NCBI GenBank assembly: GCA_949318235.1
Contig: OX439133.1
Coordinates: forward strand, 9,990,847 to 10,054,846
Reading direction: 5' to 3'
Origin: Ecdyonurus torrentis
Lineage: Eukaryota; Arthropoda; Insecta; Ephemeroptera; Heptageniidae
DNA length: 64,000 bases
The notes beneath the pieces were generated by a model, which was given only the letters and a program-made list of their open reading frames with translations, was not told where the DNA came from and did not search any database. How positions within the stretch are numbered: position 1 is the first letter of the stretch; each line of letters starts with the position of its first letter. Of the stretch, positions 50,701-56,700 are shown in pieces. A program made the position numbers and the translations under genes.

Positions 50701-53700
50701 TAAAGCCTGCTAGTGTGCCAAATGAAGTTATCGCCAGTTTGATAAATGTACCAAATGCATAGAGATTACAGCAGTAGATGGAACATTTCACCAACTCATG
50801 ATAACTTCATTTCACAAACAGGCAGGCTTTGTCATACGTGCAGAGGTACCTTTTCCTGCAATAGAGATGATAAACGGTATAGATTTAAATACTTGGGAAA
50901 TAGTTAAAAAAAAAAAAAAAAAAAAAAAAAAGCTGTTACAGACAGGAATCTCCCATTTCCCACTTATTGAAATCTACCCCCCCCCCCCCCTCCCTTTCAT
51001 GAATAATTTTATTATTTACTGTATTTATGTACAGCTCTGGCCAAACGTGAGAACAATTTGCATAGGCAACCTGCAACCACACTATGCTATCATTATGAGA
51101 AAACGCAGTGGCTGCTACTGCCTTATTCTCAAACTTTTGCCCAGAGCTGTACCTTAAATTTAATTGAAACCAACATAATTCAACTTTACGACATGGTACT
51201 AACCGTGATAGGTTCTGGGTCTTCTCCAGGTACACTAGTAGAAGAGTTCTGATGTGGTCCACCACCCATATGTGAGGGCATACCCCAGCCTTGCATACCG
51301 CCAGGTACATAACCAGGATATCCACCACCACCACCGCCTGGGTAACCTGAAACATAACATAAGAGACCAAACTTAGTAAGGGAGTCAAGAGATACACTAA
51401 CTGTAAGTAATAGGCTTTGTACAGGAGAAATTTGTGCAAGTTACTGTAATAAATTATGACATATTGCAAGTAAACTTAAATATTGACTATCACGGATAGT
51501 AAACAGCCACCAGCATTTTTGTATTGTTCAGATTTACATCGTAATATCACCACAGTACAAACTTGAAAAAAAAAAAAAAAAAAATCGTAATGTGCACATA
51601 TCGGACAATAAATGTGTCAAGTTTTTGAATTTTTAATTGTAAAGTTAAAAATCCTCGCAGCCGTTTACTATCCGTAATGATCTATATCCTATTTTTTATT
51701 GTTTCATTATTAGGCCTGTGCAATAAATTATTGTTACATGAGTTTGGTTTTTTGTACAGCTTATAAATTTTGTTTTTACATAATCAAATGTAAATTTTAA
51801 TTAATTATTTTTATTAGGTATATATTTACTTAACCACTAATAGAGTAAAATAAATTAACTCTATAAAATATTATTTATTTTTCCTATGATAAATTTGAAA
51901 GAAAAGGATAGGATAAACCAGCAAGGGTCTAACCATAGTGAAGAGAATCCCATAGTTTAGTGAAAATCTTGCTAGCAAAGATATAAAAAAAAAAGAAAAC
52001 AAAAACAAAAACAAAAACAAAAACAAAAACAAAAAAAAAAAACACAAACAAACATTGGCAATATTTTGGCAATAAACTCCAAGAGAGATGGAGTGTGTTA
52101 TGTCTTCATCAGTCCTTACAGACTCTGAGAGAAACTGAGGCATTACACACTGCATCTCTCTTCAAGTTTATTGCCAAAATATTTCCAATGTGTTGTTTTT
52201 TTATATCTGTGCTAGCAAGGTTTTTCACCAAACTATGAGACTCTCTTCACTATAGTAAGGCCCTTGCTGGTTTCTATTATCTTTTTCTTTCAAATTTATC
52301 ATATCTAACTGCGATAGTTTATTTTTCTTAATATATCTCCGTTTAATATTTTATTTTTTCTTGTTCTAGTTATTTATAACTATTTCATCATTTGATTTAC
52401 AAAAATTATGTTTATTTTACCACAAATTTTAATTGATTTCATATTACCTACCACTGTGTTATTCATTGCAAATTATGTACATTCTGTCAATATGAAGTGT
52501 TAAGTATTTCAATTATTATTTTGTTATTGCATTTTATGTTATAATTAATAAGAATTGTAACATTATTAATGGTTAAATTAATTATAATTGGAAAATTAGC
52601 AGCAAATTTGCATTTATATCATGAAAAAAAATCAAGTTGCTTCATTTTTAATTTATAAATTGTTTTAAGTTGTTTTGCTTTTTTATTTATTTATTTAGTT
52701 TTAAGTTATTTGTTATTTGTATTTATTTTTAATACTTTTGAAATTTTAATTATTTTTAAATGGCACAATTTTAACATTTATCCAAAAAAGTTTTTTTCTG
52801 CATTATAGTGTTATACCATTCAATGGTTTATATATTTTGTATTTTCAAATACTTGTTTATTATTATTTATATTACGTTTCAAAAAAAATAATTAGAAAAT
52901 AGTTGGTAGAGATTAGAGCACGTTGAATTGAAAATTAATAAAACGCGAAAATTCTCTAATTTTAAATAGTAAATTGGGACTAGGGATGCAAATAATTCTA
53001 GCTTGCGCTAGATAAAAATAGACGTTAAAAGGGATGAGAGATACAGTGTCAATGTAAAATACGATATACCTAACATCTCACGTTCTCACACTACATCAAA
53101 GGCACAACATTATAAAACAGCATCAGACTTACTCTTGGCCTTAGACCGGTTTCGTCCTTTACCTAGGACTCATCAGTAAGGCTCGGCAGAGAGCTCTGTA
53201 CAGCTAGAGATGGCTCACACCACATCTGCTAACTGACTGAGCTGAGGAAGCAAGTGGCAGCCGCGTTTTTATACGCGATGCCCCCGCAGCTGCTCTCGCG
53301 AACTTTGGAGATGGGGAACTCTAGGAAGTGAGGGAGGGCACATGTGGCTTGCTGGCAGCCAGTCTTGCATCCCTCTTAGTGCACAATATTATATTACAGT
53401 GTGAGGATGAGAGGTTTTAAATAGCAAGCCGGGTTTGCGCGCGCGATTGTTCAACCAATCAGCGCGAGCAGCTGCGGGGGCATCGCGTATAAAAACGCGG
53501 CTGCCACTTGCTTCCTCAGCTCAGTCAGTTAGCAGATGTGGTGTGAGCCATCTCTAGCTGTACAGAGCTCTCTGCCGAGCCTTACTGATGAGTCCTAGGT
53601 AAAGGACGAAACCGGTCTAAGGCCAAGAGTAAGTCTGATGCTGTTTTATAATGTTGTGCCTTTGATGTAGTGTGAGAACGTGAGATGTTAGGTATATCGT

Positions 53701-56700
53701 ATTTTACATTGACACTGTATCCCTCATCCCTTTTAACGTCTATTTTTATCTAGCGCAAGCTAGAATGATTTGCATCCCTAGTCCCAATTTACTATTTAAA
53801 ATTAGAGAATTTTCGCGTTTTATTAATTTTCAATTCAACGTGCTCTAATCTCTACCAACTATTTTCTAATTATTTTTTTTTAAACGTAATTAATACCAAC
53901 CGCGATGGTTTTTTCCTATATATTATATTATTATTTATAGGCTATTATTTATCAAGGATTTAAAGTTTTAAAGAAGTTCATATCATTTGATATTTTATAC
54001 ATAGCCTATTATTGTAAGAAATTACAAAACACATAATAATTACAATTTTAAAGTTCTGGAATACTTTCAATGAGCAAAATAATATTAAGATTTTATTTTG
54101 AATTAGTTTCCATTGAAGGTTTTCATTAAATTTATTACACAATAAAATACTGCCTCATATGAACAGGCTACAAAAATGCAAATTAAAGAGAGAGGTCAAT
54201 GATGAGTAATCAAAAAAAGAGTGATTTCAATTTTAATGGTACTTTGGCACAATTAATGGCAGTGTAATGGAATTTTTTTGAGATATTTTAATGCAAAAGG
54301 TTGATTCACAATTAATGGCAATTTGAGAAATTGATGTGAAAGCTATTTTGATATCACTAATAGAGTTGAATACTATTACCCGAGGATCCGAATTTTCAAG
54401 TTTCATTCTAATAGCTTCATTTGTACATTTTTGCCATTAATTCTGCCATTAAATACATCAGGACCCTATAAAATTTATGGTGCATAGCAAAATGAAAAAT
54501 TTATAGAAATGAAAATTTAGGGCCAATTATAGGCTAAATTAAAAATATCACTTTATCCTTATTTGCTCTACAGAGGTAACACAATAAGCTTTGAAAATGC
54601 TAATAAATTTGACTATAAAAATCAATATGACCAATCTGATTAATTTGCAACATAAATAACTAACTAAGAGTAAGACTTAAAACTAACCTCCGTGTCCAGG
54701 AGGTGGCATACCAAAAGGTGGTGGGCCTCCAAATGGAGGTGGTCCTCCAAATGGCATTCCATGTTGCATCATTCCAGGGGGAGGTTGCATTGTGTTGGGC
54801 ATTCCTCCTGGGAACAGAAATATAATACATGTTTATATTATTATCTACTACTACAAAAATAATATAGGCCTATTAAATAAACAATAATAGTTAATTAAGG
54901 AATTTTAGAGGGTGACGTGTAGAATTATGCTTTATTATACGCTATAACTTTTATTTATTTATTTATTTTTTTTTTGTGAAATCATAGAATGTAATAATAA
55001 AACAATAAGAAAGCCAACTAACGCCTTACCACAAAGAAGTCTATCGCTAGGTAAAGATCTTGATGGCACAGCTAATACAAATACAGTAAAAACTCGTTTC
55101 TATGAAGTCGCAAGGGACCCAAAAAATGACCACTTTATAAAATTGAATTTCATAAAATCTAGTTTAATTACATTAGCCTTTGTAACTCAATGGCTGGGAC
55201 CTAAAAAAATAACTTCATAATATCGAGAAAATCGTAAAATCAAACTTCATAAAATTAAGTTTTTACTGTATTTACATTGATAAGGAAATTTCAAATGTCC
55301 AAATTTTTACTTATCTATATTTTTATTCTTTCATTTATTTGTCTATTTAATTATTAATTGATTTACTACCACTCAGACAACATTCTGCCATCATTGGGGA
55401 AAACCCTCCGGTGGAAACCGCGAATGATTTATTCTTAAATTCATCATAGTGGCTTTTAGTGTTTAAAATCAATTGTAAATACTGGTATAGTATGTATATG
55501 TATTGACAAAAAAAAATTGTTTAACTGAAGAGCCTTTGTCATTGTAATGACATTATCATTCAAATAAGAAAATTACTTGAGCACATCACAGAGCAGTGTG
55601 TAGTCGTGTACTGTACTGTGATGTGTTCAAGTAATTTTCTTTGTTGATTGAAAATATCATTGAAAAGCTCTCCATTTTATAAACATTACAACTATAATTC
55701 TGTGCCACGTGAGACCACAACCTCTCCATATAACTTCTACTGTGATAAGAAAGACCCTTGCTGGTATTTCTATCCATTTCTTTAAAGCCATAGACCACAT
55801 TAAACAACATGTCGATCTTATTGCGAACAAAAGGCCTATCTCGTTTTTTGTCAGTGGAAGCAAAAGGCATATCTCGTATTTTGTCAGTGGAAGCAAAAGG
55901 CCTATCTCGAGCGCTATCGCCATAACGTTCGGGAACGAGATAGGCCTTTTGCTTCCACTGACAAAATACGAGATATGCCTTTTGCTTCCACTGACAAAAA
56001 ACGAGATAGGCCTTTTTTTCGCAACAAGATCGATGTGCTTTTTAATGAATAAACACGAAATGGAATCTTCAAAACTAATGACAATTTTTACCAGAATGTA
56101 GCCCCACGAGAGAACGTGAAAATACTGTTAAGTATGAAATTTGCATGACTATTCATGTTTATGACGTCAGAAACATGCACAAATTAGTAAAAAAATGTGG
56201 TTCAGGTTGCATAAATTAAAATTTTCTGATCACTGCTACGGAGCTACAGTTGGGTTTTTAGACAAACTAAAGTTATTTATGTAAGTCCCATCAAGTGTTT
56301 TGTGATATAAATGCTTATGTTTTCTTCTGGTCTATTCTTTTCTTTTAATATTGAAAAATTGTCTAAATTGCTGAGAAATCTAGTTTTTTTTTAGAAAATG
56401 TAATACGTTTTATTATTTTATGTAGCGACCATAGATAAATGTGTAAATATTGTATGATAATGTTAAATAATTTTCATAATTTTTTTCAGTGTTCAGTAAT
56501 ATGTTTTGTTAGTTTTTATGATGCAACTTCCTATTTCAAAAACACTATAAAATCACTTCCTCACATTTGGCTTCCTATAATATTTCACCACACAGGATAT
56601 AAGCTTGATAGTTATATAATACAGGAAATATATTACTCGTATAAATATGAAATAAACCAATATCAATTTTTAAAAATATATAGGCCCTATTGTTTTTCCT

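Follow-up and report, generated by a model that had tools for sequence, protein, structure and literature searches.

A palindrome at 52871-53890 of a 64,000-nt stretch of the genome of the mayfly Ecdyonurus torrentis (contig OX439133.1; here called the window, C12:9990847-10054846 in the host assembly of 503 Mb and 117 contigs) carries two hammerhead ribozymes (HHRs). We consider it likely to be a Penelope-like element (PLE) that is non-autonomous and was probably mobilized in trans by a PLE resembling a second repeat family of the same genome, X; that it was inserted in the manner of PLEs we hold with greater confidence still. The assignment follows from marks published for PLEs, namely, variable 5′ ends, inverted pseudo-long terminal repeats (pLTRs), a tail on one side, target-site duplications, and tandem units. 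The consulted part of a curation guide (PMC8969392) likewise counts pLTRs in inverted orientation and a short extension at the 3′ end among the features of PLEs. We call the element non-autonomous, and not a PLE proper, because it lacks a reverse transcriptase (RT). An earlier interpretation made without database searches (the sequence-only reading) had already proposed a non-autonomous retroelement with a Penelope-like connection. Both proposals hold, the former because the unit is non-coding and its internal region has no long open run, the latter because the inverted pLTRs, tail, duplications, and tandem units match those of PLEs. That reading had overlooked the tail and the 13-bp duplication, both of which show the mode of insertion.

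Anatomy of the element and its family

The palindrome consists of two 429-nt inverted arms, 99% complementary with 4 mismatches, none of them in the ribozyme, separated by a 162-nt spacer (Table 1; arm and int positions count along the arm and the 476-bp internal region, respectively). The sequence-only reading had recognized the palindrome and placed its ends at 52872 and 53889, 1 bp short on each side. Overall, the right copy reads int304-476, then arm, then tail, and its internal-region fragment matches the internal region of a sibling element (L053) at 97.7% over 173 columns (E 9e-83). The left copy ends at its 3′ end at 52871 without a tail. The two copies overlap by 9 bp at 53291-53299, which looks like a microhomology-like junction. 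Compared with the arms, the spacer gave short weak matches and nothing more. The TATA-like box and initiator-like motifs mark part of each arm as a candidate promoter, and these promoter-like regions face outward because the two copies meet 5′ end to 5′ end. No RNA polymerase III boxes were found with a simple pattern, and SAM_alpha matches in the arms were rejected as far under the cut-off. A perfect hairpin, TCTAGC-GCAA-GCTAGA, was read by eye in the 3′ part of the arm (53749-53765, plus strand, and its mirror); in the alignment, it is lost from the old copy at 18455-18714.

Table 1. Coordinates, strands, and supporting details of features in the window
Feature	Position	Strand	Details
Left copy, 5′-truncated	52871..53299	-	Promoter-like region, hammerhead, and 3′ part; arm1-429
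Right copy	53462..53890	+	Promoter-like region, hammerhead, and 3′ part; 99% inverted copy of left arm
Internal-region fragment of right copy	53291..53461	+	int304-476 of 476-bp internal region; alignment
Tail (3′ extension)	53891..53925	+	Equals first 35 nt of internal region
Target-site duplication, left	52858..52870	.	TATTATTATTTAT
Target-site duplication, right	53926..53938	.	TATTATTATTTAT
TATA-like box	53488..53494	+	Script; mirrored in left arm
TCAGT initiator-like motifs	Starts 53521 and 53525	+	Script; mirrored in left arm
Type I hammerhead, right arm	53579..53623	+	RF00163, 30.0 bits; predicted cut 53617/53618
Type I hammerhead, left arm	53138..53182	-	RF00163, 30.0 bits; predicted cut 53144/53143
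Old decayed unit copy	18455..18714	-	nhmmer E 1.5e-12, arm158-398
Second old fragment, 3′ part only	17672..17746	+	nhmmer E 0.033, arm322-401
X copy, probable PLE pLTR material, with shared tail	36682..37053	+	93% to the X element in L055, 395 columns

A genome search with one arm, which the sequence-only reading had suggested as a way to full-length relatives with a Penelope RT, gave relatives of the arm, and the frames scanned near the copies held no such RT. At least 42 arm matches at 98 to 100% identity were reported, the window's two included (40 of 2,447 first-look candidates were scored); among these, one spans 327 of the 429 bases and each of the other 41 spans 419 or more. We mapped 20 stretches of 10 kb and 11 of ~1.8 kb (labels L0xx), which with the window hold 38 of the 42 matches, and the other four sit in two further repeats on C23. 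The mapped copies are those that match the window arm best and are thus biased towards young ones. Their common plan is two head-to-head copies that differ in their 5′ truncation points and have 3′ ends that are mostly fixed; the window and 15 of the 20 long stretches show such a partner. In five stretches (L051, L053, L054, L067, and L072), direct tandem copies lie 476 bp apart, with the internal region whole or nearly so between them. The repeating unit is therefore arm (429) plus internal region (476), ~905 bp, in the order promoter-like region, hammerhead, ~273-nt 3′ part, and internal region opening with the tail hairpin. Six frames of the internal region were read without a long open run. 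The family is young and many-copied, neither an artefact nor a one-off.

RF00163 is the best Rfam match of the element in both arms (30.0 bits; E 4.2e-5 over 1,161 bp, 0.0023 when the whole window is scanned), in agreement with the two complete type I hammerheads of the sequence-only reading. That reading is likewise borne out for stems I and II, the ACC/GGT stem III without a loop, the outer CTCT/AGAG pairs, and both predicted cut positions. It had also named covariance scores below threshold as a result that would refute it; read to the letter, this is the outcome, since 30.0 bits lie under the gathering score of 34 for RF00163 and a default Rfam scan returns nothing. The core pattern occurs twice in the window (0.03 expected from shuffling), which counts as one event because the arms are copies of each other. 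The intact core and stems point to a type I hammerhead with a predicted self-cleavage site. It probably acts as a dimer, since the loopless, self-complementary ACCGGU stem III cannot close in one copy but pairs with a second. In folding models, the lowest-energy dimer is a double hammerhead (-31.9 versus twice -14.7 kcal/mol), also in an 81-nt context, and the energy minimum of the monomer is not a hammerhead. Of 32 other arms compared, 29 carry the 45-nt motif unchanged by any substitution. Hammerhead mismatches number 3/1440 versus 97/7431 in the 3′ part (p 5e-5). With eight shared sites dropped, the hammerhead no longer differs significantly (p 0.19), and promoter plus hammerhead does so marginally (p 0.038). 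Another type I hammerhead, distinct from the first (29.6 bits), was seen at L044:2163-2207 (minus strand), ~90 bp past an X tail, with the loopless, self-complementary stem III ACAGCTGT.

Insertion marks and the possible use of cut templates

In most cases one outer end of the element carries an extra tail of 35 to 43 nt, and the opposite outer end is the arm end. In the window, int1-39 matches 53891-53929 at 100%, and the tail carries a small hairpin, AACC-GCGAT-GGTT. Of 21 elements (the window and the 20 long stretches), 16 have a tail piece at one outer end, and none has one at both. The candidate explanation of the right flank as the end of another miniature inverted-repeat transposable element (MITE) was wrong, as the flank is the element's own tail. 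Immediately outside, the outer flanks share no direct repeat longer than TATTATTATTTAT (13 nt, or 14 counting the first element base). Direct repeats of 13 to 16 nt flank 9 of 13 elements tested by script, the window included, compared with 4 of 3,000 random position pairs with a repeat of at least 12 nt (0.13%). The script covered the 13 elements for which both outer ends were given, leaving out six long stretches and two elements with one end unread. One further duplication was seen by eye, in L045, once the tail was allowed for; none was found flanking the hammerhead elements in L046, L052, and L055. The family thus shows direct and/or inverted pLTRs with 5′ truncation, a tail at one end, target-site duplications with an AT-rich target, and a minimal type I hammerhead in the pLTR whose stem III is loopless and whose score is under the Rfam gathering score.

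On the mechanism that we propose, an endonuclease would make a staggered break at an AT-rich site and both target strands would prime reverse transcription, one at the arm end and the other inside the tail. The two cDNAs would then join in the middle, giving the palindrome. The enzyme would probably be supplied in trans by an X-like PLE with the same tail signal. In the weakest part of the scheme, a hammerhead dimer could trim tandem transcripts at the cut.

Possible traces of cutting are scant, with two copies to show for them. In the old decayed copy at 18714-18455, the first base of the predicted 3′ cleavage product precedes the start of similarity by 1 nt; upstream of this border there is no similarity (55% of 2,000 shuffles score as high), and downstream it is strong (0 of 2,000). 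In L053, a copy starts at arm157-159. For the second old fragment, a further E value of 9.5e-22 is circular, as the profile had included that fragment. Five copies extend into a second arm, none of them beyond the cut (arm157). The use of hammerhead-cut templates is a tentative proposition that we rate below even. That cutting serves mobilization is weakly supported and is not claimed. A separate cluster of 5′ ends lies at int8, the base of the tail hairpin (4 of 54 tallied ends, in L048, L056, L057, and L059), which may be a pause or a microhomology hot spot.

Family X, points against, and rival explanations

Family X is represented by a truncated element at L055:1990-3300, with inverted 432-bp flanks around a 159-amino-acid open frame (2421-2897) and a tail containing AACCGCGATGGTTTTTTCCT, followed by a 14-nt duplication. 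X copies in L046 and L062 have duplications of 19 and 14 nt, and the window holds one with the shared tail at 37019. Three copies bear the frame, all truncated, and the RT part was not seen in them. Only the tail core is common to X and the hammerhead unit; at 20 nt (20/20), it is their longest exact shared stretch (maximum of 15 in 500 shuffles). By eye, both families have the tail sequence ATGGTTTTTTCC. The tail also turns up in further sequence contexts near the copies, with 34 matches in ~264 kb when up to 2 errors are allowed, the hammerhead family's own included. The frame motifs VIYKLEC, AFYIGLTTQKARDRMNGH, and KPVAEHA, read by eye, we take to be PLE-endonuclease-like. Two database proteins are 81% identical to the frame over 99% and 72% of it, and one of these homologues continues upstream in a manner that looks PLE-like. 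No endonuclease relative was found in viral contigs.

We favour an X-type PLE as the helper, with some reserve. The tail is most simply read as the signal at which one kind of enzyme starts, whether the family that uses it is coding or non-coding. Long and short interspersed nuclear elements (LINEs and SINEs) can share 3′ ends. By extension, PLEs might have SINE-like parasites, non-coding hammerhead units that share with the helper only a ~20-nt tail hairpin as RT start signal, a proposal to which we give slightly less than an even chance. If true, several families of the genome share one exchangeable tail, and animal hammerhead elements gain an identifiable mobilizing partner.

A number of observations weigh against this account. 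Among the elements tested by script, 4 of 13 had no duplication of at least 12 nt, and some flanking repeats are low-complexity, so that single cases are weaker than the set. No inverted partner was present in 5 of the 20 long stretches (L049, L050, L056, L058, and L061), four young copies stop early, at arm418-420 (L047, L050, L052, and L054), and partner 3′ ends lie at arm235 (L044), arm326 (L043), and arm385 (L053). The hammerhead cut accounts for 2 of 54 tallied 5′ ends (maps read by hand), a chance of 0.024 if ends were uniform and 0.21 without the old copy; this tally leaves out the left copy of L066, which is rearranged, the window's second old fragment, and other fragments under ~90% identity. 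All 33 arms compared, the reference included, run uncut across the cleavage site, so that the template usually escapes cleavage there, and the account of an Anolis PLE describes its ribozyme as dispensable for insertion in vitro (PMC11167929, in part). The X endonuclease was assigned by eye, with no support from Pfam for it or its two homologues. The frame had no relevant PDB match, and its structure model (P0001) had a predicted local distance difference test (pLDDT) score of 40, too poor to use. Neither RT nor GIY-YIG, the endonuclease of canonical PLEs, was among the families hit in 94 of 107 window frames scanned. No RT of the hammerhead family or X was found near copies, where frames of at least 120 amino acids in the 20 long stretches were considered and 11 of them scanned with Pfam. 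A weak RVT_1 match (E 0.0025; 18 bits versus a cut-off of 29.6) came from a frame in L057 lying ~3 kb from the element, a fragment that by eye we take to be LINE-like.

Other origins of the palindrome were considered. Chimeric reads can generate long near-perfect palindromes, and the sequence-only reading had named an assembly artefact as a result that would undo it. The unequal outer ends, unique spacer, and target-site duplication contradict this, as do independent, identically arranged elements whose spacers differ, found at many places in the assembly, and an artefact is scarcely credible. A foldback or terminal-inverted-repeat DNA transposon (MITE), with a hammerhead in its long inverted ends by chance, would explain the near-perfect inverted ends and would sit well with the 22 other self-palindromes of the window; given the variable inner ends, direct tandem copies, single-arm copies, and one-sided tail, we regard it as very improbable, and some of those other palindromes are themselves X material. 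In a retrozyme, tandem transcripts would be cut at each hammerhead, circularized, and copied from the circle. The non-coding unit, the type I hammerhead, copies longer than one unit (in the same five stretches that hold tandem copies), and a hammerhead junction left intact, as a religated circle would give, all agree with this. Yet the unit of ~905 nt falls outside the 170 to 400 nt of HHR-delimited tandem units in animal retrozymes (PMC7229834, in part), and it has a promoter-like region, which retrozymes are described as lacking (PMC7761336, in part). With none of the five copies that reach a second arm passing arm157, a linear template fits better, and a retrozyme is unlikely.

The explanation that competes with the X part of our account, and with that part only, is an internal-deletion derivative of an autonomous PLE with the same hammerhead arms, which would itself supply the enzyme in place of X. 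A PLE that had lost its frame would leave such arms, such a tail, and this tandem spacing, and the ATGGTTTTTTCC tail, read by eye in both families, could be the start of the lost frame. Against it, only the 476-bp internal region or a shorter one lies between direct copies in the 31 stretches mapped, a small sample biased to best matches, and the sole frame between same-direction arms (in L050) is one of two paralogous, Pfam-less frames. We regard such a derivative as possible, if doubtful. The two L050 frames (5277-6005 and 7486-8181, both minus strand) each lie upstream of a young arm and are 50% identical in protein and 72% over 567 DNA columns. Their similarity stops ~270 to 320 bp before the arms, their downstream sides are dissimilar, and Pfam finds nothing in them. 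They look like duplicated host sequence, although the element may instead have captured them.

The window as a whole is eukaryotic DNA of 30% GC, with exons for a Rel protein, an MFS transporter, TCERG1, and a protein resembling ribosomal S2; the closest PDB match of the Rel domain is Gambif1 (188 bits versus 126 for c-Rel), a mosquito protein, which suggests a protostome of arthropod-like type. Self-palindromes of ~75 to 480 bp were seen at 22 places (for example, 29956-30331, 47693-48055, 8391-8716, 1060-1362, and 55798-56047). Those at 29940-30331 and 55522-55784 match family X and are probable PLE pLTR pairs rather than MITEs. A related palindromic family (3615-4019, 51885-52338, and 10786-10851), with the diverged tail AACTGCGATAGTTTATTTTTCTT at 52306, is possibly another PLE family.

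Comparison with known systems

Head-to-head pLTRs, tails, and hammerheads are already known in PLEs. The sequence-only reading had found the head-to-head inverted layout unusual; in the PLEs of Adineta vaga (Pen2a and kin), as described in the parts of PMC3846280 consulted, it is the commonest inverted arrangement observed. Those elements resemble the present one in their head-to-head pLTRs with TATA/initiator (Inr)-like motifs, a short tail at one end (optional, 31 bp), target-site duplication, and 5′ truncation. They differ in having an RT/endonuclease frame and duplications of 8 to 10 bp, whereas the mayfly family is non-coding, with a 429-bp arm and duplications of 13 to 16 bp. The main text of that paper does not contain the word hammerhead.

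Poseidon PAc of Anolis, from the portion of PMC11167929 available to us, is similarly an HHR-bearing PLE with tandem units and AT-rich targets. Its reverse transcription starts inside the RNA at an AC-rich stem-loop, which gives a genomic tail, and both target strands are cut and extended, much as proposed here. Unlike the mayfly element, it is autonomous, and its HHR overlaps the frame start. Animal non-LTR retrozymes (PMC7229834 and PMC7761336, both in part) share with our element a non-coding unit, a type I hammerhead, and non-autonomy, but are promoterless tandem repeats of 170 to 400 nt. The small PLE-associated hammerheads that cleave as dimers (Lunse et al. 2017, cited in PMC7761336, in part), with a missing or loopless stem III and a proposed dimer, are likened to ours by description only.

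Relatives were also sought beyond the host. When 18 viral and 11 prokaryote stretches with a hammerhead pattern were compared with the arm, the matches were confined to the core motif (up to 30 nt) and to chance-like ones of 17 to 20 nt. Arm-piece searches of other sequence collections gave nothing or three 19-nt matches, and a second hammerhead pattern occurred in 2 viral stretches, looked at by eye. In the literature examined, we found no non-coding hammerhead family tied to an endonuclease-coding PLE by a shared tail, which is not proof of absence.

In the part of PMC7761336 consulted, it is held likely that PLEs mobilize non-coding hammerhead elements, what hammerheads do in PLEs is termed a mystery, and the repeats are described as having no conserved motif that would reveal an autonomous partner. 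The mayfly family, in contrast, has a tail in common with an endonuclease-like family. Because it is also young, present in many copies, and bears the marks of PLEs, one can directly test the choice of partner, the priming of reverse transcription at the tail, and whether templates cut by the hammerhead are used.

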